Shown here: positions 9,108-63,929 of the stretch, one piece after another
Layout: every line of letters begins with the position of its first letter
How positions within the stretch are numbered: position 1 is the stretch's first letter
Assembly: GCA_017506865.1 (NCBI GenBank)
Contig: JAFCMP010000032.1
Location: forward strand, 384,266 to 448,265
Length of the DNA stretch: 64,000 bases
Origin: Tribonema minus
Taxonomy: Eukaryota; Sar; Xanthophyceae; Tribonematales; Tribonemataceae
Direction: 5' to 3'
Made by a program: the position numbers and the translations under genes
The notes under the pieces: generated by a model
Told to the model about the DNA's origin: nothing
Database searches by the model: none
Seen by the model: only the letters and a program-made list of their open reading frames with translations

Positions 9108-12100
9108 TCAGTCACTCCCGGCATCGTCGTCGTCATCATCGCAGCGATGCTCGACGACGTTGAAGACACCCGCGTCGATGCCGCTCGCGCGCAGTATGCC
9201 CAGCCACGCGACTTGCGTGTGCGACAGGCGGTCGTTGGGGCCCTTGACCTGCAATAAAGTGGCATTGATAGAGCATGAAGCAGCAACAAACTCATCAATG
9301 GATCACGAAACAATGAGTGTGAAGCTACCTGCTGGAGCTGGCCTACCAAACACGTGAGACCTTTCCATACTGAACACCAATACCCGAACGCTAAAAAGCT
9401 TGCACACAGAAGTCTTTTGACTACTGTGGATATGATGGCACTGTTTGACTCGTGGCCAATGACTGCAACAGCGGCGACCACGGTTACTGGTGGAAGGCAC
9501 TTGCGGCTAACCATTCCTTGTCACCTAGAGCTCTACGATCTTTTGATTCGTTTCCATTAGTGTGTGTAGATGACTATGACTGTGCTTTTGCTTCCAAGCA
9601 GTTGCATGGTGCAGCGCGGTGCGATGAATACGGCCATCGAAGAATGACATGTATGTACAAGCTTCGAAAAAGCAACGGTGCCTTGATCATAGGAGGCGTG
9701 TCATTGTGAGTGTTGATGTAATGCAGCTAAGCGAAACCGCCGTTGCCTCCGCATCTCAGAAGGTGTGTTGACCAGTTGTTCAACTTGCCCAAGAACTTTG
9801 GTGCGCAGCGCATGCAACGTCATTTGGCCCGCAAATGACAATCGCGCCCCCCCCGCACGCGCGAGACAAAAAGCTACACGAAGCATCTGCACAGACATGT
9901 TGGGCGTTGAGTGGACACTTGTGCACGCAAAGACGGGGAGGCTCACCTCCACAAACTTGACTGTCACTCGCACGTCGTCCAGAGCCGCGGCAAAGCTAGT
10001 GGCAACCTCGCTGCCGCTGTCGTTGGCACTGCTGCTGCCGCTGCTGCCGCCGCCGCTGCTGCTGCTGCTATTGCTGCCGCAGTCGCTGCTGCTGCGGCTG
10101 CCACTGCCAGCATCTTTCTGGGTGTTACCGACGTCATTCCCAATACAGTCGATGTTGCTGCCATCATCGGCCTTTCCGGCGTTGAAGTCATCGTTGCCGC
10201 CTGAGCAGCAACAGTCGCCGTCAACAGCGCTGCTGGAAGCGTCAACAGCAGCTGCAGTGCCAACACTAATTGTACGGACCGCCGCCGCAGCGGCGCCACG
10301 GGTAGCACTTTGCGCTGCAGCAGCGGCTGCGGCAGCAGCGGAAGGGGGCGTGTCATCGGCAGTGGCACCGGCGGCAGCGACACCAGCAGCAGCAGCAGCA
10401 GCAGCAGGAGCAGCGGCGGCGGTGGCAGGGCTTGCCGTAGCAGCAGCGGCAGCAGCCTCGGTGCTCGTGGAGCGCGCAATGCTGGGCGTCTCAGCGTCGT
10501 ACTCATCATAGTCGATCAGGCCGCTGTCGCCGAGCCACTGCCCGAGGTCGACCGCGTTGCCCTGCGGGGGGGATTGCGGTGTTGAGGGGGGGGCGAGGCG
10601 TTGTGAGGTTTAGGGTTTAGCCAACCCCACCCTAAGGCGCACGAGTCCTTGGAAAATGCTGTGGCGTAATTCCGGTGTACGGGCGGGGTGTCACGCTGCG
10701 GGCAACTACGCGGGGTGCACGCTAACCCTAACCCTAAGTGAGTGGTGTTGGGATGAGGATGAGAGGTCAGGCTCAGGCCTTACCAGAATGAGCCGTGCCC
10801 CTGAAACAGCTGCTCAATGCATTTGGAGTTGGTGACGGAGGCTATTGTGATGCCGCAATACGACCGTGTGTTCAACTAAGCAAAGGCAGAAATATATCAA
10901 TACACTTCAACTGTGCCAAAGCGCCGCCGAGCGCCGGCTGTTGCCGTAGAGTGAAGCAGCACTTGCAACCTGATTACTTCATCTGCTCATCAGCAGTCGC
11001 TCACAAACCCACGCAGGTGCCTGACAATGTTAGTCAGTCTTTGCCACATTGTTCAAGTCATCCAGATGCAGTCAGCGTGAAGTGAGATTTGTAGTTGTTG
11101 CAAGCGTACCGCAGCTGGCAGGGCTTAAGAAATGCGGCATGCAGTTAAGGAAGCTGATGCACGCCTCATGTGTCAACGTACGAGGTCAGGTGAATTCAGG
11201 TCGTATGTACTGAGGTCAGGTCAATTCAGGTCATCGATGCGGTGCACGGCAAGGGAGCTGTAGTTGAATAGAAGCGTGATACATAATCCAAGTCCTTACA
11301 AGTTCTCTGTGCACCCCTCCTGATCTATACAAAAAGTGCAAGCACCTTGTATGCGCCTTCACCACCATGCATGCGTCATGACAAGAGAAGCGACAATATA
11401 GAATTGGCATCATAGTGATATACAAAAAGTCGAGGTCATTGTGGAAATCTCGACTCACAGAGCAGGTTGCGCGGCTTTATCAAAACCCCGACTCAGCTGC
11501 TTGCAGTTGCACGCGAATCGATTATGGCACGCCCCTGTGCCATGCGAGCTACCGCTTCAACTCCAACACAACTTCAACTATGGACGCACCTGCTTGTCCT
11601 GAAAAAACAAACCGGCAAGTCCGCCGCCTGGATGCCTGCTGTCCAGTCACTTCCATTCCAACACAACTGCAAGGACAGACGCACCTGCTTGTCCTGTGCC
11701 CTCAGGAGCAACAGATCCGGCAGTCCACCGCCCAAGTGCCTGCTGTCCAGGCACAGCGCCGTGAGCAGCGAAGCCAGGCCGGCGCCGCCGATGCCCGCGG
11801 CGATGGCCATGAGCTGAGGCAGGGAGAGTCGCCCCCACCGCAGCCACCGCGCTGCCTGCAGGATTTTGTTGAAGTTGTTGCGTTGTGAGATGAGTGAAGA
11901 AATCGAGTACGTGGCGGTTTGCAGTTTGCGACACTGGCTGTTTGAACAGACGTTGAAATTTGAATGATAGCTTTCTGATGCTTTTGCCGTTCGCTCATCT
12001 CTCAGACCTTACTATTGTTATAAATTCGCTGCACGTGGCACAGGCACAGGGGCCAGGAGAAACAATGCTCTAAGCACACCTCGCTGTAATGCGCGTCCCA

Positions 12101-15100
12101 CACCACAGTGGCTGCAGTGACGTCTTGCATGAGCTTTGGCAGATTGTAACCATCGCAAAATGGCATATCAGGCATGCGGCTGCAGGCGCCTAACCCTAAC
12201 CTTAGATTTGCGGCCAAGACAAACTGCCCACAAGTACCTCCCCGTTGCACGCATCCCACGCGCAGCGCGGGGGGCGTCGCTGCCTAAGCCCTAACCCTAG
12301 CCCTAGCCCTAACTCACCCAACTAGAGGCACGGCTGCGCACCGCTCATCTCTCAGACCTCACAGTCGCCACCAAATCGCTGCGTGCGGCACACGCACAGG
12401 GGTCAGGAGAAGCGTTGCTCGACACGCACCTCTCCATAGTGCGCATTCCACGCCGCAGCCACCTCCCCTGCGAGCGCAGTGGGTGATGCTGCATGGATCC
12501 AGTCCAGGCGCGCGGACACCGCGGCGCGGCGGTTGGCGTAGAACAGCGGCGGGCAGTCGAGGTCGAGCGGGGCGTCTTGGAAGGGGGCCTGGAATACGTC
12601 TGCGAGCGCAGAACAAACGGCAAGCAGAGCGGATCGGTCAAGGCGCGTTGGCAGGAAGCCTGGGGATGCTATGACGGGAATGGCGTAGCGGCAACAGCGG
12701 CGGGCAGTCGAGGTCGAGGGGGCGTCTTGGAAGGGGTCCTCCTGGAACACGTCTACAAGGGCAGAAAGGGCACGGAACGCATAGTCATTCAGATGAGTTG
12801 ATCATGCGGGCGGGAGATGTGGTGGGAGGAATGGCATCGCAGCAGCAGCGGAGGTGATGGGCGTTCCGATGACGGGCTTCACTGACAGCGCAGCCATGGT
12901 GGAAAGTCATCCTCAAGTTGCAGCTGAAGTGCACCACGTGAATGATCAGAATTGCTCTCTCGGCACAAGGCCTCGCGAAGCATGCTGAGGGGCTTGGACC
13001 TGCTTCAGGATGCAGCGCAGAAGTGTGGTGTCAACGCAGGACGGCTGTCTGGCACACATACAGATCGAGCATACTTCTTGATGTAGAAGGCGGCATTGGC
13101 ATATGCAGCCAGCGTAATCGCATGCTAGATATCACTGACGCAGAGATATGCTTTCTATGACAAGCAGTACACAGGCCTCATGACAAGCTGAGCATTGCTG
13201 CCTGCAAAAAAAAAAAAAAAACTGGCCCCTCACCCGGCACGTCCATGTAGAGTACGTCCCACATGTGGACGGCGAACAGCGCGCGCAGCTAGCATAGTCA
13301 CGCGCTAAAGCATATCGCCGATGCGGTGATACGCTACATGCATATCAGTGTCGAGCGTTTGCAGCATTGAGTGTGCAGGCCTGCTGAAATTCCTGAGCAA
13401 TGCTGCCTGCAACCTGCCGCTCACCCGGCACGTCCATGTAGAGTACGTCCCACATGAGGAGGGGGAACAGCGCGCGCAGCGGGCCCCCCTCGCAGTGCCA
13501 GCTGCGCCACGCCCCTTGCTCTTCCTGCGAGAAGTACTGCGGTGCACCACAGTATATCGGCTCAGAGACTGGATGTGCTTGCTTGTTGTCCGCAGGAGAC
13601 GCGCTTGCGTCCCAAGCGGCGTGCGAGGAACCCTGAGGAAACCAAACGCGCTGGTGCTTACCAATGATGCAGGTTGATACAATGACAATCACATCAAAAC
13701 CGTAGACTCGGAGACACCGTTGACTCAGAGACCAAATGCGTTTTTCTGTCTGCAGCTGCGGAGCACAGGGGATACTCCAACGCCCGGCATGCAGGGAGAA
13801 CCTATGCTGGTGCCTGACGCTGGTGATGCAGGTGACATCATGAGTGATCACAGTGACGGTGGCAGGTTCTGTCTGTTCAATTCTAGGCCACATGTTGTTG
13901 ACCATGCTTGCAAATTACGGCTTGCACATGGTCTACACCCGAGGTGTCTGCACATTGAGGCTTACATGCACATGATCTTTAGCTGCGGGGCCACATGACT
14001 TCTTTATTTAAAACAAAGGGGCTGTTGATGAATATATGCAGCGTGCATTGTTGTGTTGCATATGTCCAAGTGCATACTTCCATGCCATACTATGCCACCC
14101 ATGCAGGCCAAAGCTACAGATATGCCATCCCTTAACCACACGCACACCAAACACGCCTCTGCTGAGGCCTGCTCGTGCTGACGGCGTGCACTCTCAGGTG
14201 GGGTAGGCAGGCATGGTACTGCTAGGGTAAGGTGGTGGTGTCACTGCTCTCCATCAAAACCTTGAAGAGTGGCCCCTGGCGTGCCCCAGTGCCACAAGCA
14301 CCACGTGTGTGGGTATTCAATACAGCCTGTGTTCATTCACATGCTGCGAGGAACTTGAGCACTTGCGTTCACACAGGCCCCGGGAAAGGCCGCGTTGTTT
14401 GACACACACTAGCAACACGGCCTGCGCTGCTGCGGATACGCTGCCCGAAGTGAGGTGCAGCAAGCCTCACAGCAATGTAAATCCGTGGCTCACTTCAATG
14501 ACTCACTTCAATGACTCACTCTCTCACCTGCATCACGAGTCCCTCCACCCCGCATGCGTCCCCCCTCCCGAACCCGATGAAGCGGCTCTTCACGCCCACG
14601 CTGCAGTTCAGCCGCCGCCCGAACAACTCCAGCCGTGTCGTCACCTGAGCATGGCTGCCGCCCCCTCCCTTCGTGCCACTTCCGCCGCCGCCGCCGCCGC
14701 CCCTGCCGCTGCTACCACGCGCACCTTTGACGCTGCTGGCAGCAGCGCCGCCGCTGCCGCCGTGGCTGCCGCCACTGCCGCCGCTGCTGCGGCGCCGCTT
14801 GGCGCCGCTGCCGCTGCTGCCGTGCCCGCCGTCATCGCTGTGCGCTGCCGCACAAGCGCTCACGATGCGCGCCACGTGTCTATCAGCGGCGAGCGCGCCG
14901 AGATCCAGGTCCCCAAAAGGTGACGTGCCGCTCGCTTCCGCCGTCGAGGCAGCAGCCTCTGCGGCGCTGCTGGCGGCGCCGCTGCTGCTCCTGCGGCGGC
15001 GCCGCTGCGCTGTGGCGGCGGCGGCGGCGCGCTTCTTGCTGCGCTGCTCTCGCGGGCTCTCAAAGGCGCTGCTGTCGCTGTCGCTGTCGCCGCCGCCGCT

Positions 15101-16304
15101 GCTGCTGCTGCGCCGGCGCTTCGGCGGCGTCGCGCCGCGGCCGCTGCTCGCTGCCGCGGCGGCAGCAGCGCTGCTCGGCGCCGCTGAGCCCTGGCCATTG
15201 CCGGCGATACATACGGTATCTTTGTGTCCGCATTCATGTGCTGCGTGCTCGATCGTGGCGAATGCCCTGGGGGTGTGCCCCCTGGGGCCGAGCTCACCGC
15301 CGCCGTTACTGCCTGAGCACTGTGGTGGGGGGAGCAGGGGGGGGATGTGGCTCGGCAGGGGGCCCCCCAGGCGCGTCAGGCGCTTGTCGAGCGCGAGTCG
15401 GAAGCCGGAGCGCACGTGGCCGTCGCGCAGCGCGAGCGTCAGGGCCAGCCGCGCGTCTGCCTGCGGCGCACGTGCAACATGAGATATCACGCGTGCTCAA
15501 TGCGTAATGTCAAAAGCGGAGCACATGTGCCCATCGCGCAGCGCGAGCGTCAGGGCCAGCCGCGCGTCTGCCTGCGCGGCGCGCGCGCAACACAAGATGT
15601 CACCTAGAGCTCTCTACAGGTTTTTGATTCGTTTCCATGTCACGGACCCGGTGAGCACTTATTCCATACTCGTGAAATGCGGCGCGCATGATGAACGGTT
15701 GTCTGATGGCGTTGAGCGCAGTGGTGCCCCCCTGCGTGGAGTTGCACTGCAAGGAGATTTTGGACTGATGAGAGGTACATGCATGAAGTGTCACTTCATC
15801 AAATGGATGCTGAGAAGCACGTCCCACATGCAGTGTTGCGGTGACGACGATCGGCAGCATTCGGTGAAGGCGAGAGCATCGCGGCGTTCTCTGCGATGCA
15901 GCCTGCAGCTCGCGCACCACGGCTACGGGGCTATGGGGATCTGCAATGATGGCAATTAGACACGAAAGGCGAAGACCAGCGCACCATGGCAGTCTCAGCG
16001 AAGTGCACATGGCAGGTTATGAGCCCAGTCCATGGGTGTCTATCGGTTTCGATCAACTGAAGCACGTGGATCATCAGCATGCCACCGCAAGGCGGTCGCA
16101 GCAACAGTGAGCCCGGCTGCCACTGCTGACGGCGAGTACACATGTTGAAGTACACTCATACTTCAAGCGCACTCTTACTGAGCGCTGCACCCCACCTTGC
16201 AGCCCATGTGGACCAGGTCGACAGTGAGCCTGTCCCAGTACCGGCCGCGGCGCTGCAGAGTGCTCCTTCCGCGCAGCAGCTGCATGCCGCGAGGCAGGAA
16301 CGGT

Positions 16305-16339
<35 letters not shown>

Positions 16340-19300
16340 GGCAGAAGCTGTACAGTGTCAACACGAATGCGGATACCACGACGCATGTATGTACGGTGCA
16401 GTTTAGACAGCGTTAACAAATACTCTCGATATACTTCGCGTTCGTGTGATTGACCTTACACAGCATATGTGTGATGTTGAAGTGGGCATTGAAGGTGCTG
16501 ATCACACTGTGTAAACCTCTCATCGGCCGATACACAACATGCATCTTGGGGTAGGGCTAGGGTTTAAGCGTGCCACGCTCTCACAACGTCATTAGAGCGT
16601 CGTCTGTACGTCTGACATATTTGGGACGTCTTGAGTACTTGCAGATGGTGCTTATGCAGGTACAGTCGTGCGATGGTGCTGCAAGATGCAAGGACAAACG
16701 CATCTGCATACGGCATTTGCTTAGGGTTAGGGTTAGGGTTATGCTCCCAAGTACTCTATTAGGGTTATGCTCCCAAGTACTCTGGAGTGCTGCAGAATTG
16801 AGGTGATTGGACTTTTAAGCAACGCCGCCTTGATGTACCGCCGAGCGTTTCCGCACATGTGCATACTTGCAGGTGACGCTCCTCGACTGTGTCACGAGCG
16901 TCATGTCAGAAGCGCCACTGCGCCTGCTCTGTCACGACCAGCAGCAGTGCCCGCATGACAGGCGAGTGGACAGACCACCACCTCTCCATCCCTGCTGTCA
17001 ATTTTTGCAGACACCAACGACCGTTTTCACTCATAGGTGTTACGAAAGCGCAAATATGAGTAGTTGTAGAGGGCGTTGTTCGAGTCAAGGTGAACTTTGA
17101 AGTTTCTTGGAAAAGAATACTTCATACAGTGCGGCCGCTTCTGTGTTGGATGGCGGCCATGATAACCTCTCGATCCGCTACTGATGTGCAATACGAGCCA
17201 CAGCTGCAGCGTTAACTTCAACTCACCTGTGTGAGGAGCGTCACCGCCTCACGGCACCGCCGCGCGTAGCGTGACCAGCACCCGTGCTCATTCAACGCGC
17301 ATCAGCAGATCACCACTCTACTTCTGCTGTCACTCCCTGCAAACCATCATGATGATGATGATGATGCAAACCATCACACCCGCGTCATTTGTACGCGGAC
17401 CTAGCTACATGCCTTGTTGCCAAAACTACACTTCAACTACACTTCAACTTACCTGTGTGAAAAGCGGCACTGCTCGCCGCGCCTGCTCCAGCCTTGCTGT
17501 GACCAGCAGCCGCGCTCATTCGACGTGTCAGCAGATCACAACTCTACTTCTGTGCTTCTGCCGCCGCTTCTCGCAAACCTCCACCACATCCACGTCGTGT
17601 TTAAGTGGATGAAGCCACATGCCTTGTTGCCAGAACTATACTTCAACTAACACTTCAACTCACATGGGTGAGGAGCGTCACTGCCTTGCCGTAACCGCCG
17701 CTGCTCCAGCTTCGCTGTGACCAGACTCAACGAGCGTCAGCAGATCACCACTCTACGCGTGCCGTCACCTTCGCAAACCACCACATTCACGACTTAAGCG
17801 TGGTGCCAAAACTTCAACTTATCTGTGTGAGCAACTTACCTGTGTGAGCGTTCCGCCTCGCCGTACCGCCGCGCCTAACCTAACCCTAACCCTAGCTGCA
17901 ACCCCTTGTTGCCAAAACTACACTTTAACTGCACTTCCACTCACCTGTGTGAGGAGCGTCTCCGCCTTGCCGTACCGCCGCGCCTAACCCTGACCCTAAC
18001 CCTAGCTGCAACCCCTTGTTGCCAAAACTACACTTCAACTACACTTCCACTCACCTGTGTGAGGAGCGTCACCGCCTCGCCCTACCACCGCGCCTGCTCC
18101 AGCCTCGATGTGACCAGGCTCAACGAGCGTCAGCAGATCACCACTCTACTTCTGCCGCCACCTTGGCAAACCACCACATCTACAACTTCGCTTCTTGCCG
18201 GACCTTCAACTTACTTGTGTGAGGAGCGTCACCGCCTCGCCGTAACGCCGCGCCTGCTCCAGCGGCGCAACCCCCTCCCACACCCCTCCCGCCAGCACCC
18301 ACCCCGCATCGAGCTGCAGCAGAAACTCCGGGGGCACTCCAGTGCCGTGTGCCGCTGTTGCTGCTGCTGCCGCTGCTGCTGCTGCTGCTGCCGCAGCGCA
18401 CTGCTGCTCGTGCGCCGCGACCAGCGCCGCCACCGCGGCGGCGGCGAGCGCTGCCGTATCGCCGGCGCCGGCGTCCTGAGCGTAGCGACATGGGTGATGT
18501 CTATGACCCTGATGTATAGCAATGTTGCTTTCAGAAACGCTGTGGCAATGCTGCGGCGAACTACGTACTTGATTATGTGAAGATTTTTCAGCATACTACC
18601 AACTAACCTACTTCATTGTTGTGCAGATTGTTCAGAACAGATGCTGCACGCTTGGTGATGAAAATCACAATCCAAATAATAGTGGTCATGCAGCGACACC
18701 GCAATGACGTGGTGTGACGACATCAGCTGGCCGCTGCTGCGCCGCCTGCAGCCTGCGCGCTGTGACACGCGCCGCCGCTGCTGCGGCCACGCACTACGTC
18801 AGCGCTCCGCTGGCAGCTGCCTAAGCTCTGCGGCGAACGCAGCAATGTCCGACAGCGCAGGGACACCTGCCCGCATGCATTACATGCCGCCGGCATGCTG
18901 CGCGCTTCCACGACGATCTTAACCCTAACCCTAACTATAACCCTAAGGGGCGAGGAATACCCATGTGCGCGCAGGTGGCAGGAACACGCGCTGGTTGCGG
19001 CCGAGAGCTGCGGCAACAGAGCAGCAGCGCTCCACAGCTGCACATTCCACGCAGCACAAAGTGGGCGCGCTCACCAGACAGCAGCTGCCTTCGTGCCGCG
19101 CCAGGCAGCGCGACGCGACGCGCGCTAGCGCCACGACCGCCGCCGCCGCTGCTTCCACTTCGTTTGCACCCTCGCCTTTGTCATCCTTGGCGTCAACTGA
19201 AGAGCACGTGCCCTCAGGCGCTGCCTTGCTTATGCCAAATACGGTTTCCGCTTCTGTAACTGCCAGGTCCGCGACTGGCGCTGCAGCCAGGGCAGCGCTC

Positions 19301-22300
19301 GCAGAGGAGTTCCCGCTGTAAAGTAGACGCATTTTGAGGTGGGCGGTAAGGTCGCGCACGCCGAATGCAGTTTCGGCTTCTGTATTTGCGAAGTCAGCGA
19401 CTGGAGCAGCCAAGGCAGCGCTCGCAGTGGAGTGTCCGCTAGAGAGCAGGCGCATTTGAGGTGGGCATCAAGGTCGCGCACGCCAAATACAGTTGCGGCT
19501 TCTGTAACTGCCAAATCAGCGACTGGAGCAGCAGTTGAGGCAGCGCTCGCAGAGGTGTTACCGCTGCAGAGCAGGCGCGATTTGAGGTGCGCAACAAGGC
19601 CGGGGAAGTGGGGCCAGGACGATTCACAGCAGCTGCAGCTGCGCACTGACATCACACCATGCCAACAGGCGGTGCCCGTCCCCACCTGCATTGTGTGACG
19701 ATATGTGTCTTGCTTGAGGGTTGATGTGCCTGAGTAATATACACTGCATGTACGCTCTACAAGCCGTCGAACAACTGCACTTCCTGGATCTGCCACAAGC
19801 ACTGCGCTGGTGTGCAAAGTACAAACTTGGAGCTGCCCGTCTTGAGAAACCTTCTTCATATAGTTGAACTTGCAGATGGTGACCACAACAGTTACAGTTG
19901 CTTGCTGGCATTTCTGTGTGGCTGTACTCCTGCAGTGCAACGCAGTAGCCTGGTTATACCTCTGAGCACCCTGCTGCGTCCGGTACGAAGCAGATGTAAT
20001 AGGTTTCAGCCGAAGTGTGACAAGCTGCTGTATCAGTAGAAAGCGCAGTCCTAGCCCCCCACCGCTAACCCTAACCCTAAAGTACTCACCGCTGAGCTGC
20101 TGCACACACTGCTGCCGCTCCAGTGGCACTGCCCAGCTCTACTGCCGCCTCCCAGCGCAAAAATTGATCGCGGTGCGCAAAGGCCGGCCACTGTACATTG
20201 ACCCTGCAGCAGTGCACAACACGAGAAGCGATCACATCAAGTACGGTCTAGTGTATTGGGATCACATAGCTGATGTGACTGCGTCTATGTGTACGCGCGT
20301 CGATCACATCAAGTACGGCTGTTTGCAGCATTGGCCTAGTGTATTGGGATCATAGCTGATGTGACTGCGTCCACATGTATGCGCATCGACAGTGCCTCAA
20401 AGCTACGCACATGCTCAAGCATGCATGACAAGCTGGCAGCGCTGGCGGCCACGATGAGTATGGTGGCAGGCAATGCGCTGCGATGATGCACATGCACGGC
20501 GAGCGCCTATACATTGAGAACACAGACAGCTGATGTGTTGTCAGTGCTGCGAGTTGAAGTGTACTTGTTGTGGAGTCCAGGTTCAAATGTTGAAGGCGCG
20601 GCGTCAGCACAGTATGAGTGACGACCTGCAGACGGTTGCAGCAGTCACTCGTAGAGGCAACACGAGGTTGTGGCAGCGCTTGAAAGGGGGCACAAAACAA
20701 CGACTCTCTGCCAATTACGCAGATGCTCATCTGGATGAGTGTGGCAATGTTGAAGTGATGCCAGAGTGTAACTTAAATGTGACAATCTAATAAATGAATG
20801 GGGAACAGGCCTTGGGTTGTGTACTTTTTGCAAAGAGTCGGGGGGGGGAAGCGGCACATGCATCACTTCTTGACTGGTACCGTCCAGCAATCAAGTGTCG
20901 GCACATGTAGGTAACTCAGTTGTGAGTTCATGATGAATACCTGTACTGGGGGTACTTGGCAGATGAGTGTGGCACTGTTGAGGTGGCGCCAAAGTGTCAC
21001 CCCAGTCATAATGTCGTTGATGAAACAATGGCCTTCTGCCAGGTACTTCAAAGTTTGCAGAAGCTCATCTGAATAAGTACGGCAATGTTGAGGTAGGTGA
21101 CGCCAAAAGCGTAACCCCAATCATAACGTTATTGATGTGAATTGCCTGTACTAGGGGTACTTGGCCAGCGTTGTGTGACGACCTGCTGACCGATGCAGCA
21201 GTCTCTTACAGAGGTAACACAAGGTTGTGGCAGTGCTCGAAAGGGCGGCTGTCTGCCAGATTTGCAGTTATATGGCATGTTGAAGTGACGCCAAAGCGAA
21301 ACCCCAGTCATAATGGTGTTAATTACCTGTATTGGGGGTACTTGGCCTTGCCAAATGCCACCAGGAGGCCGGGGCACCAGCTCCACGGCGCGTGTATACT
21401 GGCGGAGAGAGCGCCTCTATTTAGCGCACCAGTGCTGCGAGCAGAGTTGAAACGAGGCGGCACAGCTGTTCAGGTCGCGTTGCAAACCGGTAAATGTCGA
21501 GATGTCACGCATGTATGCACGTCATGAGAGAAGGAAGACAACTACTTCTAGTAGGTTTTCGATGCCCATGACGCCGTTACGACATCATGCATGCGTGCCT
21601 GCGCTAGACTCCTGAGCATATATACCACCGCACCGACAGAAGTGTATACCCTCGCCCCCCCCCCCTCCCCCCCCCCCCCCCTTCTGCACACGTTGCAGCC
21701 AGCAGCAGCAGCAGCAGCAGCAGCGAGCAACGCACCTGCACGTCATGTAGTGCAGCCGCAAGGCGCGGCGGAACAGCCTGCTAGGGCCCTCAGCTCTCAG
21801 CACCATCCAGCGCAGCCCCCCCCCGGCCACGCTTGCCAAGCCCCCGTCGCCGCGTCGAGCATCGCCACAGGCTGAGCCGCTGCCGCTGTTGCTGCAGCGG
21901 CGGACGTTGTGCTGAGCGCTGGTGCTTTGAGCGCTGCCGCTGCTGCTGCTGCGGAGCGCTGCCGCCGCATCGCGCGCCGCGTCGCGCGAGACGCCCAGCT
22001 GTGAGCGAGGGAACAGGGGGGGCGCAGTCGATGGCACCGTTGTGAGATGGTGCGCTCGCGTCAACATGCGCGCATGTCAATGTGCCCGTGCGCGCTTGTT
22101 GCCGATTCACATGACAGTGCGGGAGCTGGCGACCGATGGGGGGGCTTGCATTGAAATAATGGGTGATACGCCAGATGCCATTCCACACACAATGTGCGGA
22201 ATCTGGCGAAGAGTGGGCGGCTGGTGCTACCATGATGGGAGCTACACTTACCTCGACCATGTACGCATGACAAGAAAAACTGACCCCAGCAGCGGACGGA

Positions 22301-25300
22301 CGGGGCGTTTACTTTTGTTGTGAAGACTTGACCACAGCAATGTTGCAGCTGCAAAAGAAAGGCATTAAGACGGCAGTTGTCTGAGCAATGCTCACACACC
22401 AGGCTCACAATCGCTTCTGCAGTAGATATGTGACTGCTTGTGCGTATCATGTGCTGACGATGTATGTCCATGACGAGCAGGGGGGGCGCAGAAAAGGCCC
22501 CAACAGCACCCAGAGCGCGTTGCGGAGCGCTGAGCACTGTGACAGGCATAACACGCTGGCGATCGCGCCTGCTGCAATGTCATTGCAAGCGCCGCCATGA
22601 TAATTCATTAGGTACCCCCACACAGCAGCGGCTTCTTAGGAAACATGGCGCACTGCAGACCGGTCTCTGAGCAGTTACTCGTGTGCCGGAGCTGCGTCAA
22701 ATGTGTAAGGCATGCATTCTGATCACACATCCATAAGAGCCTCATCCATGGCCCCCTAAAATCAATCAAGGTTGCGCAGAAGGGGGGGGGGGGGGGGGGG
22801 GGGGATGTGTGGTGATCACAAGCTCAGGGTGATCGCAGCTGTTCTGCACAAAGTGCTTATTGCTGAGCACTCTGTCGACTTGCAGGTGCAGGCATGTACG
22901 CGCCTCTTTTGCAGCCCCGCCTGTGACCTCATTGAGGTCGTACAGGAGGGGTGGTGGGGGGGGCTTTGTGTCGCTGAGCACTATTTCGAACTGCAGGGGT
23001 GAGTATGTCTGTACGTACTCACCTCCTTGAGAGCCGCGCCCAGGACCTCATCTAGGTCGCGCAGGAGGGGGGGGAGGCTGCACTTACGGTAACCAAATGC
23101 AGGATGTACTTCAAGATGTATGTTACTGAGCACTGCAGTGTATGCTGCCGCAGAGGTAGACTTGAAGTACCATGTACCCATGTACTCACCTCCTTGAAAG
23201 CCCCGCCCATGACCTCATCTATATCGCGCAGCAGGGGGAGGGTGGTAATATGATGCTGAGCACTGTGTCAAACTGCAGAGGTAGGTGTTTTTACTCACCT
23301 CTTTCAGGGCCCCACCCATGACGTCATCGAGATCGCGCAGGAGGGGGGAGGCGGCATGTTCAGTAATTAAATGCAGCACGTACTTCAAGAAGTGTGCTGT
23401 CGAGCACTGCAGTGAGACGGCAGGGGCAGGTGTGTACTCACTTCTTTCAGAGCGCCGCCCATGACCTCATCTAGATCACGCAGTAGGGGGAGGGGGGCGC
23501 CCCACAGCGTGCGCTGCCCGACCACGCGGCGCCGCAGCTCGCTTAGCATGCCCGCACACGACGTGTCCTTCACGGCTCTCAACCCCTGAGCAGAGCCAAT
23601 CACAGGCAATGCAGGAGCGAGAGGTGTGATGTGTCATGCTCGCCTCGTGATGAATGCGATACGTGGGCGGATCGCTGGAGACAAACACGTAGTTGTGTTC
23701 ATTACGGCACTGACTGCAGATAGGTGAAGAATATATCGGACAGCATGCCCGCGCGCGACGTGTCCTTCACGGCTCTCAACCCCTGCGCAAGCAACACGCA
23801 ATGCAGAGAGTGTTTCTACACGGTACAGTCACCTCCACACGCGGCACAATGACAGTTGTATGTCCATCACGGCGGTGAGCGAAGATGGGTAAAGAACGCA
23901 TGTCACAGCGGAGAGGTGCTGCGGAAAATGGCATTGATCCAGATTCGCCTGCCTTGCTTTGCAAAGATGCAGCCCCTGCTGAATGCGCCAAGAGTGACTG
24001 TTCATATGAGGCGGGGAGAGGCGCCCACGAATCACGTGATCCTTGCGCAAAGGCGGGCGATGCTGCCATGTCGCTCACGTGTCATGCCATGCGCTTATGA
24101 ACGACCGACATTTGCCAAGCGTCAGATTCTAACCCCACTTGCATACATAGTCCAAAGAAGTACTTCACACAATCATTGAATGATCTGAACAGCATGCGTA
24201 TGCCGAACATGAAGGTGTTACCTTAGACCCTGTCTTGGTCAATAGCAGCTTCAGCTCCTTGGACCTCAGACATTCGCCGAGAGCGGACAACACTTGCTCC
24301 AACTCCAATCCTTGACCTGTCACTCCCTGCACAGCGATGCAACATTCGTTGAGGTGCAGAGAGTGTCAATGTGATGTCAGGGCGGTGCTGGAAAGCTCAA
24401 TGATTGCAATGTTTGTGACACACTAAAGTCACGCGAACTGCAATGTTTGTGGAGTACTCAAGTAGACTCTCCGATAGCTGACAACACCTGCTCCAACCCC
24501 AATCCCTGGCCGGTCACGCCCTGCACAGCAGTGAGAAGTTCACTGAGGTGCAGTGACTATCCGTGCAATGGCAGGGTGGCGCTGTGACGCACGCGAACTG
24601 CAATGCTTGTGGAATACTCAAGTCTACTCTGATGTACGACGTTATGTCTGGGGGGTGATGGTGCCTGTCAGCAACAGCATAGTACAAGAAAGAGAGAACA
24701 TGGCGGACAAGTGACCTCTGCAACAAAGGCCATACCATACCATACCATACCATACTATGGAACTTTCCATGTGCCACTAGGCCAAGGCTGACTCTAAATG
24801 TAGAGCGGGGCATGCAGTTGGAAACCACAAGTCTTTACCAGTAAGTGGTGTCCTCTACAGCATAAACGTCACACGTTCCAGCGTGGACGTCATATGTTCC
24901 AGCATTGCGCACGCACATGGGTGCACGCAACGATCAACCAATGCCTGGGGATTCCCGCCGCGTTGGTGGCCTCATACAATATGAGGGTGCAGCATAGGAG
25001 CGTGGACACAACATCGCACAGCTACATGCAGCAACACACACTGTCTGATGTTGTTGCTTGCTGTGGTACGCTGAAATACGCTGAAATAACCTCACAACTT
25101 CAAGACGTACCTACATGGGCAAACACACCTGTGGGTACGTTGAACCTTATAACTTCCAGATATACCTACGTTGCTGCTTGCCTTGGGTTCGTTGAACCTC
25201 ACAACTTCAACACGCACCCACACGGGCAAACACAACAAGCAGTGACCTGTGGCAACGGCGACACAAACCCAGCGGCCGCCAGCTCATGCACCTGAAACCA

Positions 25301-43912: not shown

Positions 43913-44150
43913 GCGCTGCTGCGCTGGCCATCTGAGATGCTAATGAGGGTTAGACTTAGGGTAAGGGGGGGTTAGACTTAGGACTAGGGATGTGCAGGGC
44001 TGGAGGGCAAAGCGGCCGAGGCAGCGTTCAGCTCCAGGTGAGCGCTGCTGCGCTGGCGATATGAGATGCTAAGTAGGATGAGACGTAGGGTTGGATGCGG
44101 CGGAGGCAGCGCTCAGCTCTAGGTGAGCGCTGCTGCACAGGCCATTGATG
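43865..44150. repeat. Copies of RING gene stop-codon region
   Basis: GGGCTGGAGGGCAA and GCTCAGCTCCAGGTGAGCGC at the stop (43871-43920) recur at 43996-44050 and 44094-44140, so the 3' end is duplicated twice past the gene. Confidence 0.85.
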
Positions 44151-44499
44151 CTGATTAGAGGTTTTACTTAAGGTGAGGGATTCGCGGGGCGGGATGGTGA
44201 AGCGGCGGTACATGTCAGACTTTGGACGAGCCCCTTCTCACAGGCGGCTTATTGAGTGTGGAAAAAAAAAACAGTACAAGGAACAGGCACCTGCACTACT
44301 AAAGAAGCGGCTCACAGGAAACGATTCCACATATACATCCCACACGCATACTTCTACATTTTATTACTTTGCAGTGCATACATGCGCCGCAGGTCCGTAC
44401 TGCACGATTCATCATCACCTGACCCTAACCCTAAGTCTGGGCCCGTTGGCGCTGTACGACGCGTCGATCGCTGCTACGATACGTCAGGTTCACAGTGAG

Positions 44500-44850
44500 G
44501 TGATGCTCAGCGACCCCCTATCCCCCCCCACCCCCCAGCACACCCCCTCCACTGCGCGGCCGCAGACGGCAATGACAGCAAGAACTCCCGCACTTGATCC
44601 CACAGATCACAAGTATTAGGTCTCAGGCAGTGGCAAGTATCAGGTCCCAGGTGGTGGCCATGCTCAGCAATCGCCGCCTCCCCGCACGCCCACACTTCCG
44701 CTGCGCAGCAGCAGACGGGGCGAATGACAGCCAGAACTGCATCCCAACAGCACAAGTATCAGGTCTCGTGATGGCAGTGCTCAGCAACCTCTGCCTCCCC
44801 GCATGCGTGCCCCACTCTTCCGCTGCGCAGCTACGCCGCGGCGCGACGCG
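44500..44850. repeat. Copies of otubain exon 5' edge
   Basis: A unit of roughly 120-130 bases containing GTGATGGCAGTGCTCAGCAA, CCCCGCA and CTTCCGCTGCGCAGC precedes the first recognisable otubain exon (44831) and recurs near 44650-44720 and 44500-44580. Confidence 0.8.
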
Positions 44851-53339: not shown

Positions 53340-54086
53340 ATGTTTGACAACGTTCAAAAGCACGAACCTTGTCAATTGCAATCCACATTATTCAACTGTG
53401 TTTTCATTTCTCGTGGGTTTCGAATGTGCTGCCCATGCGCCTTTGCAGGTGTGCTTCTGAGTTCCCACGCCCCTGGAGTTGGTTTGGTGCAACACATCAG
53501 CCAGGAGATCGCAAACGCTCACATTAAGTTGAAGTTTGTGTTTAAAAGCCCCATGCATGCCATAGAGTACGCGGTACTGTGGGAATGTCTCGTGCGTGCT
53601 GGGACACTTGGAGCATAGTGTGGGCTTGCCTCATATGAAGCAGCGGACAGCAGTCACATTTGTTAACGGAAGCAGCGATTGCCCCAGCTCTGATGCAGTG
53701 CCTGAGCGTCTTCATCCAGGCATGGCATTGATGTGTGTCACTTGAAGCTTGAAAATAGTCGGCATGCTGAGAATCTGGCAGGTGTTGCATGAGTTTACTT
53801 GGAACAGCTGAGATGCGCCGCAGCAGACGTGTGTTGCGTTCTTCAATGAAATGCGTGATGAATACATCAACTACAACCTAAGGCATGGTGTCTTCTTACT
53901 GCATTCTTGCTTATATGTCCGTTGCGTCCGCCTGTCAGCCTCTGCCAGGTTGTCTGCACGATCAACAGTCAATTGCACATGTTTTTACAGTTTCCCCAGT
54001 GATGGTGCGGAGGTACGGGAGACCGCTGCCACCTCAAGGGTGCAGAGCTCCTAGACCTACTTGTTATGGCAGACAAAAACACGTTT
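53340..54086. repeat. Left arm of a long imperfect palindrome
   Basis: This stretch recurs in inverse orientation at 54302 to about 54900-55040. Matches include TGCATTCTTGCTTATATGTCCG against CGGACATGTAAGCAAGAATGCA, TAGACCTACTTGTTATGGCAGAC against its complement, and CAGGCATGGCATTGATG against CAATGTCATGGCTGGATG. Similarity is highest near the centre and falls outward. Confidence 0.85.
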
Positions 54087-54301
54087 AGGGACTTTTCAAC
54101 ACAAACTTCAATTTAATGTGAGCGTTTGCGATCTCCTGGCTGATGTGTTGCACCAAACCAACTCCAGGGGCGTGGGAACTCAGAAGCACACCTGCAAAGG
54201 CGCATGGGCAGCACATTCGAAACCCACGAGAAATGAAAACACAGTTGGATAATGTGGATTGCAATTGACAAGGTTCGTGCTTTTGAACGTTGTCAAACAT
54301 T
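54087..54301. repeat. Palindrome spacer, inverted copy of 53340-53555
   Basis: The 215-base spacer between the arms is itself a near-exact inverted copy of the outer end of the left arm (GACAACGTTCAAAAGCACGAA, CCACGCCCCTGGAGTTGGTT and GATCTCCTGGCTGATGTGTT are shared). The boundaries are marked by CACGTTTA and TAAACGTG. Confidence 0.9.
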
Positions 54302-55040
54302 AAACGTGTTCTCGTCTGCCATAACAAGTAGGTCTAGGAGCTCTGCACCCTTGAGGTGGCAGCGGTCATCCGTACCTCCGCGCCATCACAGGGGAAAGAA
54401 CCCCAACAACTGCAAAATCATGTGCTTTCAACAGGTGATCGTGCAGACAACCCGGCAGTGGGCGCAACGGACATGTAAGCAAGAATGCAGTAGCAAAAAT
54501 GATGCCTTACATAGTACTTGATGTATTCATCACGTATTTCATTATGGTACACAGCAGACATCTACCGCGGCGCATGTCAGCTGTTTCAAGGAAACTCATG
54601 CAACCCCTGCCAGACGCCTCAGCATGCAGACTACTAAGTAAGGGATTATCAATGTCATGGCTGGATGAAGACGTTCCCGCACTGCATCAGAGCTGGGGCA
54701 ATTTGCTGCTTCCGTTATGAATGATGTCCCCCGCTTCAAAGCAGCCACTCACCAACTCGAGTGTCCCAGCATGCAGGATACGTTCCCGCAGTGCTTGATA
54801 CTCTGTGGCATGCCTGGTGCGGAAAGCTTCCAACGTGACCTCCATGTGAGCAAGCGTCTTTATGCTCTGTCGATGCTGCTGCTGGTGCTGTGGTCATCTC
54901 TGAATGGTTTTCAAGCCACATGAGATCGGGCGATGCCATCGGGCACACTGTGACCTGTTCCATCTGACTGTGTGCAAGGTGTGCATGGTCACTTGGAGAA
55001 AAGTCCAGGGCACCTACAGCTTTCAGTGTGCCGGCTTGCT
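54302..55040. repeat. Right arm of a long imperfect palindrome
   Basis: Inverse partner of 53340-54086. The outer 200 bases match weakly (TGTGAGC, AAGCG and AGCTT blocks), so the end is approximate. No transposase-like frame is seen inside. Confidence 0.75.
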
Positions 55041-57450: not shown

Positions 57451-57474
57451 AGAACTCTGGTCTTCAACTTCAGT

Positions 57475-57850: not shown

Positions 57851-57883
<33 letters not shown>

Positions 57884-58685: not shown

Positions 58686-58689
58686 TTGA

Positions 58690-59440
58690 GCACAGGCTTG
58701 CCGTCAAGCTCCCGCTCCTGCGCCAGCGGCTGCGGCTGCAAGCGGCCAATTGGTTAACTCCACGTTTGTTCTACAAGGGAACTGCAATCTTGTTTGATTA
58801 TCTACGTCGGACAGACGCTCACCCTCCGACACCATGGGCGCGCTGCCCCCCTCAAATGGTACCCGCCTTTGCTCCCCCCGCTCCCCCCCCTAGTATCCCG
58901 CTCGTGCGCCAGCGGCGGCGGCTGCGCACCGCCCCCCCTGCACACTTGGCCAAGTCTCCCTAAAGGTGCCCTTTGTTCTGGAAAGCGCACCGCGTGTTTG
59001 ATTCTCCATGTCGGACTGACGCTCATCAGCCGACGACATGTTCGCTCCCCCCCCTAGTAGTACCCGCCTTCGCTCTCCGACGCTCCCCCCCTAGTATTCC
59101 GCTCCTGCGCCAGCGGCGGCGGCTGCGCGCTGCGCCCCCTGGGAAGCGTACCGCGTGTTTGATTCTCCATGTCGGACTGACGTGCATCAGCCGACGACAT
59201 GCGCCCCCCCCCCCCCCCCGAATAGTACCCGCCTTTGCTCCCCAACGCTCCCCCCTACAGTAGTATCCCGCTCCTGCGCCAGCGGCGGCGGCTGCGCGCC
59301 GCGCCCCCTGCGCACGTGGCCAAGTCGCCCTTTGTTCTGCAAACTGCACTGCACTCTTGTTTGACTCTCTACGTCGGACGGACGCTCATCAGCCGACGAT
59401 ATGCGCGCGCTCTCCCCCCTAGTAGTACCCGCCTTCGCTC
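58690..59440. repeat. Tandem units of the ankyrin gene 3' flank
   Basis: Three to four diverged units of about 180-200 bases share CCCCCTAGTAGTACCCGCCT, CTCCTGCGCCAGCGGCGGCG, GTGGCCAAGTC and CATCAGCCGACGACATGCGC. The unit nearest the gene includes its stop codon (59419). Confidence 0.85.
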
Positions 59441-61055
59441 CCCGACGAACCCGCCTCGGGGGGCTCGGGGCAGCCATTGGCGTGCGCCCACTCGACCACG
59501 TGCTGGTGGCGTTTGTAGTCCGCGTTCGCAATGACGTAGCCGTTCCAGGGGCACCCGTATGCGCGTGCCCACTGCAGCACGTGCAGGTGCCCCTTGCCCG
59601 CAGCGCTGATGCACACGTGCTCATTCCAGGGGCACCCATGCTCCCGCGCCCACTGCAGCATGCGCAGATCGCCGTTTTGGCGGCGTGGCTGCACGTCCGC
59701 TCGTCCCAGGGGCACCCGTGCTCCCGCGCCCACTGCAGCATGTGCAGGTAGCGGTTTTTGGCAGCGCGGCTGCACGTCCGTTCGTCCCAGGGGCAGCCGT
59801 TAGCGTGCGCCCACTCCAGAATCGGAAAGAGGCAGTTTTGCGCAGCGGCTTCGCAGACCTTTGCGTCCCAGGGACAGCCGACGGAGCGCGCCCACTGCAG
59901 CATGCGCAGATCACCCTGCTCAACTGCGAGGAAGCAGGCGTCGGCGGGCATGGGGCAGCCACGGCGCTGCGCCCATTGCAGCATGTCAAGGTGCCCCCCC
60001 ACCGCAAGGTGTTTGCTCGTGTGTGCGTCCCAGGGGCAGCCGTTGGCGTGCGCCCACTGCAGCACTTCAAAGTGCCCCTTCTCCGCAGCGTTGCTGCACG
60101 TGCGCGCGTCCCAGGGGCAGCCGTTGGCGCGCGCCCACTGCAGCAGCGCGAGGTGATTGTGCAGCGCCGCGTAGCTGCATGTCCTCTCGTCCCACGGCTG
60201 CCCGTCCGCGTGCGCGAACTGCAGCACGTCGAGGCGCCCGAGAGCCGCGGCGTTGGAGCATGCGGTCCAATCGTCCCAGGGGCAGCCGTTCGCGCGCGCC
60301 CACCGCAGCACCTCGATGTGCCCCTGGTCCGCCGCGTTCGTACACACCCAGCGGTCCCAGTTGCAGCCGGCGGCGCGCGCGACCTGCAGCACCTCGAGGT
60401 CTCCGCGCTTCGCCGCAGCCGTGCAAGTGTCCGTGCCCCAGGGGCAGCCGTTGGCGTGCCACTGCAGGACGTCGAGGTGTCCACCCCTTGCGGCGGCGAT
60501 GCACGTGGCCTCGCTCCAGCTGCAGTTGATGTGGCGCAGCCAATGCAGCACCTCGAGGTGCCCGCCCGCCGCGGCGGACTTGCATGCACGCTCGCCAATT
60601 GGACCACCGTTCTGTACCAGCCACTGCAGTAGCTGCAGGTGCCCGTGCCTGGCAGCACGGTTCACGTGCACTGCTTGAAGAGGCAGAGGGTGCACGCTAC
60701 AAAGGCACAGCAGTCCATCGAGGTCGCCGCGGCGAATGCACGAAAGGTGTGCCACAGAAGGGCGCATGCCGTTGTGCACGGCCCAACCGACAAGGCTGGC
60801 GCTTGCCACTGCGTCTGCCGCCACGGTTCTGTACTTCCTTGGGGCTGTGAGCTTCTCGATCTCAGCATTGAAAGCGCTGCAGGTGCTTCTGATCATCAGA
60901 GACGGGGGGAGGAAGGCGAGAATGAACGGCACAGCGGCCAAGATCGCGTGCTCTTGCTCAGCAGCCGCGAGCCTAATCCTGGATGCTTTTCTGGTCTCTG
61001 CTGCTGCCATGGCTCCGATTCGCCTTTGCTCTCCGTCGCTGCAAGGTTCAGACAT
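59419..61055 (-). CDS. Ankyrin-repeat protein with one frameshift
   Basis: About 545 residues from the ATG at 61055 to TAG at 59419, single exon. The N-terminus has AAVPFILAFLPPSLMIRSTC, which resembles a degenerate F-box-like helix pair. Then come roughly twelve repeats of 26-28 residues with the pattern CSNAAEKGHFEVLQWAHANG, CPWDARTC. This is the WARANGCPWD-type ankyrin repeat, abundant in algal and large-virus genomes; such proteins bind partner proteins. At the T4 run 59675-59678 the frame breaks: the neighbouring repeat at the same site has five (AAKNRYLHML), here one is missing and the repeats continue in the next frame (LRMLQWAREHGCPWNEHVC) to the end. This is either a one-base sequencing or assembly error or a recent disabling mutation. 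Confidence 0.75.
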
Positions 61056-61215
61056 CGGAGTCACGTGGCGACTCACTAAAACGCACGGATCGCTAAAGAG
61101 TTCCCGCCACCCGCTGCCTAGCGCTGCTGCACTTTACTGTCGTATCGTTTTTTTGGTCTCACGATGGAGAGACTCGTCAATGACTCGTCACTTACGAATT
61201 GAATTGTGGATCATT

Positions 61216-61985
61216 CGAATGATCCACGCGGCACTGCAAAACGCATGGGCCTCATGCCCCGATTTTATTGTCGCACTTTCTCATTCTCGATTCATCTCTT
61301 CCTTGTTCAGCTCATTTCTCCCCTTCAGCTCAATTTCTCGATCTTCATGCGAGCCCGAACGGCGGCGATGCAGATCACAACACCTCGCCAGATCGTACGC
61401 GAACATGGACATCAGCTACTGGTGGACCGCGCTCGCCGCGGAGGCGTCCCGGCATGCTGAGCTTGCGAAGCATCATGGCGTCGCGCATCGAAGCGCTGGA
61501 GCAGCAAAACCGCTCGCTGGCCGAAGACGAGCACCGGAGCAAAGTGCGGCAGCACATGAGCTACATCATCAGCGGGGGATGCTCATGTGGCGTGGCAGAT
61601 CGCTTGTCCGTGACGATCCACGCGGCAAACTGCATGGAGTCTTCCTGCCCCGATTCTGATTTGCATTTCTCGTTTCTCGGTTCATCTCATTTCTCCCTTC
61701 AGCTCAATTCTCGATCTCATTTTCAAGCGGCGGCGATGCTGTTCACAACACCTCGCCACTTCCGTACGCGAGCATGGACCTCGGCTACAAGTGGACCGCG
61801 CTCGCCGCGGAGGCGTTCCGGCATGCTGAGCTTACAAAGCATATGGCGTCGCGCATCGAAGAGCTGGAGCAGCAAAGCCGCTCGCTGGCCGAAGACGAGC
61901 CCGGAGCAAAGTGCGGCAGCGCAGCACATGAGCTACATCATCAGCAGGATGCCGATGTGGCGTGGCAGATCGCTTGTCCCCGAAA
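61216..61985. repeat. Direct tandem duplication of about 380 bp
   Basis: 61216-61610 and 61617-61985 are clear copies: GACCGCGCTCGCCGCGGAGG, AGCCGCTCGCTGGCCGAAGA-like, GTGGCGTGGCAGATCGCTTG and the CTCATTTCTC pyrimidine tract. Confidence 0.9.
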
Positions 61986-62314
61986 TGACCCCTCCGCTTT
62001 GGGCGGAGTGGAATGACCTGGTGCGTCGCATTGAGCGGCGCGCCACCGCCCGGCGCGGCGCTGCTGCGGATCCAACGGGCACCGGAAAGAGGACGAGGGA
62101 GAATGACAACACGAATGCGCCGGCGCGCGTCGCCAGGGAACGCCTGCGTCCGCAAGTGGCGACACCGGCCGTCTGTCGCTGCCGGGGCGGTTTCCGGTGC
62201 CGCCGGAAAGAGGGCGAGGGGTGGAGAAGCTGTACAGCTGTGAGCAGTCGTCGGCTGTCACAGACCAAACACTCGAGGAACGCCTGTGTTGGCGACGCAT
62301 CCGCTCACCGCTAA
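61774..62314 (+). pseudogene. Broken, duplicated gene fragment of unknown family
   Basis: The second unit starts with an ATG (MDLGYKWTALAAEAFRHAEL, ASRIEELEQQSRSLAEDE), then shifts frame after GACGAG relative to the first unit and stops. The alternative frame continues through MSYIISRMPMWRGRSLVPEM and WNDLVRRIERRATARRGAAA into a basic tail ending near 62314. The first unit (from 61405) has a different one-base shift (KHHG against KHMA). So neither copy is intact by itself, although each retains what the other lost. A spliced gene using parts of both cannot be excluded. Confidence 0.4.
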
Positions 62315-63589
62315 CAATGTGGATCGGCAGGACAAATAGAGGGCAGTCGGGCATAAAGCGTTGGAGAAAAATGGGGGGTCAACAGCTAACCCCAGATCCC
62401 GGTTGTTGCTGCCCCCGCATTCTCAAATGAACATTTCAATGTATTCAGAGTTTCATCATAGGATGTACCGGCGCCTGAGCGCTGTTGTCTTGGTGTCGAT
62501 TTCTTTCTCACTGCACCTGCCGGTGCTGTGGCATTGATGCATGATGCAGCAACACAGGATGAAAGCAGCATGCGTGAATGCATCATAGCAGCACTTTTGA
62601 GGCAGCAACAGCAGACAGTGTGACACATCTGACACATGCTGGGTGCTGGAGAGGAAAAGGTGCCAAATTACAGGTGATACTCCTCATGTGGACGAACGCT
62701 TTTCTCGGAGTTCCAAAAAAAGGAACGAGGCTCGAATGTGCGCCTGACGCGCATTAAAGCATTGCTCAGCGCCCCCTGCCCCCTCTCCCCTCCCCCCCTT
62801 GCACTCTGGGTAATTGCACACCAAATTTGGTGGTGCGTGAACGGAACACTCCTTCAATTGCTGTATACAGGCCCTCCCCGCTAATGCCCGCATGCGCCCA
62901 TTACTATTCCCCGTTCTGCCCCCCCCCCCATCCCCATTCTGCCCCCCCCCCCATCCCCACTTTTGGGGTTATCCCTCAACTGACTAGAAAATAATAAGCC
63001 CCTCCCCACCCACCCACCCACCCACCCCCCCACTGCGCCCCCTGCACATTAATCATAAGTTGTTGCGGTACCAATCGCTCACGGCGCGGGACAAATGACA
63101 TCAGCGGCGTGCGCACTGCAAACCGTACCGGGCAGGCTGAACGCGCGCTGCCACACGCGCGGCGCTTCTGTTGGAAGGAAGAGGGAAAGGGGAGGGCGCT
63201 TTCAGTGGGGGAAACACTAAACCCCCGGCGCAGCCTCCGCTGCCACCGCCGCTGCTGCAGCGGCGGCGGCGGAAGGGGCCCTGCTGCTGCTGTGTGTCTT
63301 TCTCACAGACTTGTATGTGTGGTGCGGAGCACCAGAGAGAGTGTCCCTCCCTCTGCTCGCCCCGGGGGGCGGTGATGACAGCTACTGTTACATGCCAGCC
63401 TGCCCGAGAGCGAGCGCCGCCGCGCGCGCAAGCGCTTGCGCGAGTCAAGACTCTGACTTGCCGTCGCCTCCACGCCTCCACGAGCACTCATCGCTGCGAG
63501 TCTCCGCAGCGCGCCGGGTCCACAGCAGCCCCAGCTCTCTCGCTGGCGCACCCCACACTCAATGACTCAGACTTGTGCCGTAAAGCACT
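62315..63589. other. No gene supported; pyrimidine-rich simple repeats
   Basis: Contains two CTGCCCCCCCCCCATCCCCA-type units (62913-62965), a (CCCA)n tract near 63008-63027 and a C-rich promoter-like stretch. Short frames only. Confidence 0.45.
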
Positions 63590-63745
63590 CACTCGCGAGT
63601 CTCACTCCAAGTCGAGCGGGGTGGCACACCGAGCGGCGCTGCAGCCAGCTCAACGACTCAGGCCCGCGCTGCTGACCACTGACTCGCGAGTCTCACTCCA
63701 GGTCGAGCGGGAGCGGCTCGCCGAGCGGCGGTGCTGCGGCGTCCG
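63590..63745. repeat. Copy of the terminal gene's stop region
   Basis: ACTCGCGAGTCTCACTCCAG and GTCGAGCGGG around the stop codon (63681-63712) recur at 63589-63620, followed in both by ACCGAGCGGCG- or GCCGAGCGGCG-like sequence. Confidence 0.85.
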
Positions 63746-63929
63746 TTGCCCCGTAGAGCATGTGGAGCACTGCCTCGTTGATGAGCGTGCGCTTGGTGGT
63801 GCCGTCGTCCACAATGTGGTCCTCCGCGGGGGTCGTGCTCGACTGGAAGGAGAACGTGACGCGCGCGGGCTCCGTCAGGATGAGGTGCGCCGTCTCCACC
63901 GTGAACCAGTGCTTCTCCGACACGACGGC
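63693..63929 (-). CDS. Last exon of an unrecognised protein
   Basis: After a GTTCCTCAG acceptor at 63930 an exon of 78 codons runs to TGA at 63693. It contains VSEKHWFTVETAHLILTEPA, VTFSFQSSTTPAEDHIVDDG and TLINEAVLHMLYGATDA, which look like alternating strands and a helix of a real globular domain. I cannot name the family. The rest of the gene lies beyond the terminal G tract. Confidence 0.55.
   Translation of the reverse strand, partial: AVVSEKHWFTVETAHLILTEPARVTFSFQSSTTPAEDHIVDDGTTKRTLINEAVLHMLYGATDAAAPPLGEPLPLDLE

Follow-up and report, generated by a model that had tools for sequence, protein, structure and literature searches.

Intron-side copies of exon edges and short-range direct duplication in the genome of Tribonema minus

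In tandem exon duplication and in mutually exclusive exons, neighbouring copies of exon sequence lie within one gene. For potato RdRp, a tandem duplication across an intron-exon boundary has been described that created one intron (PMC4974935), and the introner elements of Amoebophrya are presented as dispersed elements of introns that carry inverted repeats together with direct repeats of 3-5 nt (PMC7789003). A search of the open-licence literature, which gives weak evidence of absence, found no paper on genome-wide exon-edge copies.

The sequence considered here is a 64-kb window (the whole stretch of DNA that was analysed, with positions counted from its first letter) that closes a 448-kb contig of Tribonema minus, whose assembled genome amounts to 158 Mb in 554 contigs. 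A sequence-only reading of this window had proposed that the edges of exons, splice sites included, are tandemly copied into the flanking introns of nearly every gene by a process centred on exon-intron borders. We compared the window with further parts of the genome, with exons located by protein evidence, and with the systems named above.

Local same-strand duplication in the window and the genome

Self-comparison of the window resulted in 71 same-strand repeat pairs less than 1 kb apart versus 2 inverted pairs, after a low-complexity filter (pairs with a trinucleotide entropy below 3.8-4.3 were dropped, the cut-off varying by analysis), and local direct repeats made up 16% of the window. 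Elsewhere in the genome, ten 20-kb stretches, four of them near earlier search matches (C68, C235, C457 and C507) and six at round coordinates, contained 182 direct versus 2 inverted pairs less than 1 kb apart, and the share of a stretch lying in local direct repeats ranged from 1.5% to 46%. The counts and cover in the window and these ten stretches establish that local direct copying is widespread and uneven across the genome, and the direct and inverted counts, here as well as in the CCT genes described below, show more copying than chance would give.

The distribution of offsets to the nearest copy (n=246) peaked broadly at 115-205 bp. Among hand-picked arrays, 31 of 57 within-array spacer pairs scored higher than the 99th percentile of pairs drawn from different arrays (n=723); this homology of spacers within an array points to the duplication of whole units. 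Only 3 of 112 pairs (of at least 90% identity and at least 40 bp) had homology along 80% or more of the offset, which would not be expected of recent tandem duplication of whole units and would reflect either patchy decay, the copying of short segments, or cores refreshed by conversion. Insertion of dispersed elements was rejected as the general cause of the spacers, since a search of the window and of the fetched sequence found similar sequence elsewhere for only 5 of 79.

Dispersed and repetitive sequence of other kinds was also recorded. An element of ~80 bp lies at 31411-31486, 45102-45172 and 41800-41842 on the forward strand and at 9481-9557 and 15598-15639 on the reverse strand, with 84-93% identity among the window copies and 1217 candidate places genome-wide, 40 of which were scored. 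Another of ~105 bp, at 20797-20905, had 39 further scored matches genome-wide (78-89%, both orientations) and 101 candidates. The heptamer ACTTCAA/TTGAAGT occurs at 271 places in 264 kb of window and ten stretches combined, or ~1 per kb, and 8-mers containing or overlapping it reach up to ~28 times the dinucleotide expectation. Interstitial telomere-like TTAGGG repeats occupy 16733-18263 and also some spacers between edge copies in the stretches L020 and L021; TAACCCTA, which belongs to these telomere-like repeats, is 64-fold over expectation. Within the same region, 17215-18263 forms an array of repeats in which GTGAG motifs resembling donors can be read on either strand. A large inverted repeat at 53340-54820 has partners ~750 bp apart (98% identity over 213 bp, 76% over 554 bp), a long open frame with ankyrin repeats runs along the reverse strand at 59190-61133 with an 81-bp tandem period at 59541-60323, and the contig ends in 59 G (63942-64000), possibly an assembly stop.

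Exon edges and their copies in flanking introns

Exon evidence independent of the repeats was obtained for part of the window. FAN1, on the reverse strand, was matched by PDB chains at about 13515-13432 (a weak domain), 12612-12427, 11852-11676 and 9260-9153, the last of these (9153-9260) being the last conserved exon, with the VRR_NUC C-terminus, also identified by PF08774 in the genome search and read-through frame. The tail and donor of the exon at about 11852-11676 (11650-11754) pair with a degenerate intron-side copy at 11555-11650 (74% over 106 bp, offset 95), and the tail and donor side of the exon at about 12612-12427 (12342-12458) pair with a copy of exon tail, donor and intron head at 11992-12108 (75% over 117 bp, offset 350). 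At the other end of that exon, where the PDB alignment begins at 12612, the acceptor and exon start (12534-12613) recur in the upstream intron at 12681-12766 (85% over 87 bp). Furthermore, the exon of the weak domain, aligned to 13432, ends at 13425 with its first intron base at 13424, and its tail and donor GTGAGC (13416-13480) recur 191 bp inside the intron, there with GTGAGG (13225-13289, 94% over 65 bp, flanks dissimilar). Four FAN1 edges with PDB or Pfam exon evidence were aligned to copies in this way, compared with the at least ten that had been put forward. A search for FAN1 homologues found nothing.

The otubain gene on the forward strand was confirmed by PF10275 (E 2.6e-10), with a Pfam match from 44829, and alignment of 44510-44870 showed degenerate upstream repeats of the exon start and the stretch just before it (pairs of 72% and 80%). 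CWC25 was matched by PF12542 below the family cut-off (E 7.7e-5), and the copy reported for its exon 3 was not recovered, as the low-complexity-filtered self-comparison contained no pair between 28.1 and 36.4 kb. Four copied stop-codon ends had likewise been listed; the only candidate in the window lies at 63.6 kb, where 63558-63645 and 63649-63737 on the reverse strand (80% over 89 bp) represent a candidate stop-codon end or donor, and one copied stop-codon end was seen elsewhere, in L024 at 6939-6999/7046-7106.

Other donor-bearing local repeats of the window, adjoining putative exons, were aligned at 23.0-23.5, 37.4-37.8, 41.7/41.9, 43.9-44.2, 45.65/45.79 and 63.6/63.7 kb. On the reverse strand these comprise five copies of an exon-like tail at 22870-23510, four of which end in GTGAGT (at about 23441, 23298, 23189 and 23022), three copies of a putative exon tail at 37400-37790, two ending in GTGAGTACATG, and the pair 45651-45724/45786-45859, which ends in GTGAG (93% over 74 bp). 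On the forward strand they comprise the pair 41718-41797/41922-42001, a putative exon tail followed by GT (90% over 80 bp), and an exon-like tail with GTGAGCGCTGCT that occurs three times within 43860-44190. A further forward-strand pair, at a putative exon, is 36442-36499/36584-36641 (93% over 58 bp, offset 142), with no Pfam match in the region. Two reverse-strand pairs, 24274-24430/24468-24624 (74% over 157 bp, offset 194) and 27471-27530/27653-27712 (95% over 60 bp, offset 182), are repeats with no exon assignment.

Beyond the window, a CBP/p300-type acetyltransferase gene in L020 and L021, which among the ten stretches is the one richest in repeats, was chosen after the fact for that richness. 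Its arrays hold two to five copies of an exon tail with donor or of an acceptor with exon start, and tblastn with seven CBP proteins, including those of Chrysoparadoxa and Ectocarpus, matched whole exons and, separately, exon-terminal pieces. For example, residues 764-850 of the Ectocarpus protein align at 10738-11004 and residues 829-850 again at 11461-11526. In a genome-wide survey of four protein families, made from profile matches with no DNA comparison, 20 pairs among 345 matches lay within 1 kb and overlapped in the profile. Eight of these pairs share an exon end, with the shorter match downstream, and eight share a start, with the shorter match upstream, so that exon-terminal fragments are seen in 16 of the 20; the remaining four consist of one copy-versus-copy pair (scripted class 'wrong side'), one whole-hit duplicate, and two pairs classed as interior/other, which may be donor copies whose matches run past the exon end.

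A more systematic count was obtained from chaperonin CCT genes, which were found by Pfam and of which five were taken for their many exon matches. The set is partly non-blind, since C5 and C135 had each displayed a single edge copy in the hit table beforehand. C51, for which the table listed two edge copies but which has no verified intron, is in no CCT count. Splice sites were placed by profile continuity. The CCT-alpha model agrees at 96% with a EukProt transcript, from which it differs by eye in its first two modelled residues and in a 17-residue piece missing from the model, and by this match its junctions are RNA-supported; the next closest proteins are EukProt g16900.t1 and those of Ectocarpus, Vaucheria, Ascophyllum and Chrysoparadoxa (80-83%), matches that point to a probable position among the stramenopiles, close to the brown and yellow-green algae.

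Using 60-bp windows across the five genes, a local copy was found for 10 of 26 donors, 6 of 26 acceptors, 15 of 94 exon-interior windows and 87 of 273 intron windows, and the inverted controls gave 0, 0, 1 and 3, respectively. By gene, the copied edges numbered 4/10, 8/12, 1/14, 1/10 and 2/6 (16/52 in total), and two further modelled CCT genes had 0/4 and 0/2. Edge copying is thus present in this gene family, with several genes showing none or one, which falls short of the 'nearly every gene' first suggested. Recounting the five-gene set without C5 and C135 left 4/30 edges, 2/55 interior and 19/130 intron windows. The best copy lay on the intron side for all 16 edges, downstream of 10/10 donors and upstream of 6/6 acceptors (sign test 3e-5), and the splice site was inside the alignment for 15 of the 16. 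Taken together, the exon evidence in FAN1, otubain, CBP/p300 and the CCT genes, independent of the repeats themselves, shows that exon-end copies in flanking introns are real.

Copying had been suggested to lengthen introns, and introns with edge copies had a median length of 635 bp (n=13) versus 481 bp for those without (n=16; P=0.03), a comparison in which the genes are pooled. In Ectocarpus the median intron length is 524 bp on autosomes, and introns account for ~46% of the genome (PMC12477816).

Duplication, selection and competing explanations

Three things are observed: the copying is local and direct, it has an intron-side polarity, and the copies are without coding constraint. The last is apparent from codon positions. 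Copies differed from one another at 64, 51 and 55 of 472, 480 and 484 sites at positions 1, 2 and 3, which is about flat, and exons differed from their copies at 37, 31 and 63 of 503, 509 and 513 sites (the pairs are non-independent and the counts come from well-matching stretches only); with differences flat between copies and not from exon to copy, the copies look unconstrained and the exon constrained. A position-3 divergence far below spacer divergence was dropped as a basis, its figure having come from stretches chosen by similarity.

The best reading of these observations, with a probability that we put at about 0.6, is pervasive short-range direct duplication filtered by selection. DNA segments would be copied beside themselves on the same strand, mostly 115-205 bp away, presumably by ordinary errors of replication or repair. 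A copy falling inside coding sequence or doubling a whole exon would be purged; one falling across a single exon edge would be tolerated provided that splicing keeps to the outer, original site and so removes the extra edge. The survivors would then be exon-terminal segments with their splice site, lying beyond the true edge in the intron, and would decay as neutral sequence as the true exon stays constrained. We infer that such purging, and not targeting, accounts for most of the association of copies with edges.

A tentative alternative, compatible with duplication plus selection and not excluding it, holds that the tandem copies are old and that recurrent gene conversion from the constrained functional edge, or re-copying of short patches from it, keeps young the part that derives from the exon. 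Such upkeep would suit the cores of ~60 bp at offsets of ~190 bp, the 94% identical FAN1 copy at 13225-13289 with its dissimilar flanks, and the finding that distant copies are sometimes the closest to the true edge (11527, CBP E1 array). It would also suit the fall in true-to-copy identity from ~0.92 over the last 20 exon bases to ~0.84 at +1 to +5, ~0.64 at +6 to +10 and ~0.45 at +11 to +20; however, these copies were found through the last 27 exon bases, so that the exon side is pre-selected, and the sharp exon/intron step was set aside as a sign of conversion because much of it stems from how the copies were found. In windows unused for finding, identity to the true edge was 0.73 on the exon side versus 0.65 on the intron side (P=0.11, 15 clusters), and the difference between copies was small (0.72 versus 0.69). 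A bolder and rather unlikely form of these ideas would have an active process in the lineage re-copy functional borders into their own introns, or conversion refresh old copies there, such that introns grow as arrays of decoy edges whose youngest part is the constrained stretch of exon end and first donor bases.

Targeting of the copying to exon-intron borders, or its initiation there through features of transcription, R-loops or chromatin, is in our judgement unlikely, and the evidence bearing upon it is divided. In the five CCT genes, edges were copied as often as plain intron (16/52 and 87/273) and at about double the rate of exon interiors (15/94; P=0.056), which is suggestive of exon interiors being copied less often; the intron count includes some of the edge copies themselves, and family-level tests were used for this reason. 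There, 13 of 22 repeat families held a true edge versus 5.6 expected under random placement with exons intact (P=1.5e-4), an excess over all CCT genes that would favour targeting but that rests on C5 and C135 (11/15 versus 4.4 expected; 2/7 versus 1.2 in the other CCT genes). Outside the 22 stood 12 families beyond verified structure and four classed as 'exonic', three of which abut an edge and, when counted in, give 16/25. If exon-interior duplications are purged by selection, surviving copies will look edge-bound, and random placement with purging alone returned 22-44% edge families: simulations with random duplication, purging, exon constraint and the detection threshold gave shares of 0.22-0.41, or 0.23-0.44 with edge-abutting families, against which the observed counts had P values, depending upon duplication length, of 0.0003-0.067 (13/22) and <0.0001-0.035 (16/25). 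The simulation thereby removed much of the family-level excess that had looked strong, and on a recount the remainder came from C5 and C135.

At finer scale, a drop in copying just inside the intron after donors speaks for targeting, with donor edge versus intron +20 to +60 at 9/29 versus 3/29 in the CCT genes (P=0.10) and 8/9 versus 1/9 in CBP (P=0.003), a gene picked as repeat-rich, and so do the ends of readable donor families in CCT and CBP, 9 of 11 of which fall within -3 to +16 relative to the splice site. Against it, CCT acceptors showed no such dip beside the edge, and edge and intron rates at the window level are equal. An excess at edges is thus possible, carried by repeat-rich genes, and is not established. 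Of the original description of a tandem duplication centred on borders, the intron-side position of the copies (16/16) and the inclusion of borders are supported; the centring itself is not established, given edge rates equal to those of introns and a two-gene excess.

That the copies function as alternative exons or splice sites is very improbable: 28 of 36 copies still have the donor GT, but there is no codon-position signal between copies, some contain indels and broken splice sites, and they are exon-terminal fragments. Assembly artefact or chance similarity, the former a possibility admitted by the sequence-only reading, is very unlikely, as in 15 of the 16 CCT cases the edge copy has diverged from its original by 2-16% and the inverted controls are near zero.

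Comparison with known systems

Duplication filtered by selection, if general in the lineage, would supply a dense natural record of intron lengthening and of the origin of decoy splice sites, since a single genome would hold numerous neutral copies whose parental edges are known. Such a record would permit direct tests of how the spliceosome recognizes the true site when near-identical ones lie close by, and of whether introns are gained through duplication at borders. Additionally, exon annotation and protein-to-genome alignment in this genome can yield false partial exons.

The feature common to our data is a same-strand local duplicate carrying an exon end and its splice site, present in 15 of 16 CCT edge copies, in the window alignments and among the profile matches. 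Mutually exclusive exons differ from this in being whole, constrained exons, whereas here terminal fragments prevail (16/20, with one whole-hit pair) and codon positions are flat. In the model of Rogers, duplication of an exonic AGGT provides both splice sites of a new intron; AGGT has no visible role here. The potato RdRp case is alike in being a boundary-crossing tandem duplication that carries splice signals, and differs in being one event that made a new intron, whereas the copies in T. minus are many, often in arrays, and are added to existing introns as far as tested. No new intron was seen among the 16 CCT copies, each of which adjoins an existing edge within an existing intron. Introner elements of Amoebophrya resemble the present repeats in being tied to intron borders; they form a dispersed family, whereas the copies described here are local, each array having a sequence of its own and only the 5 of 79 spacers resembling sequence elsewhere.
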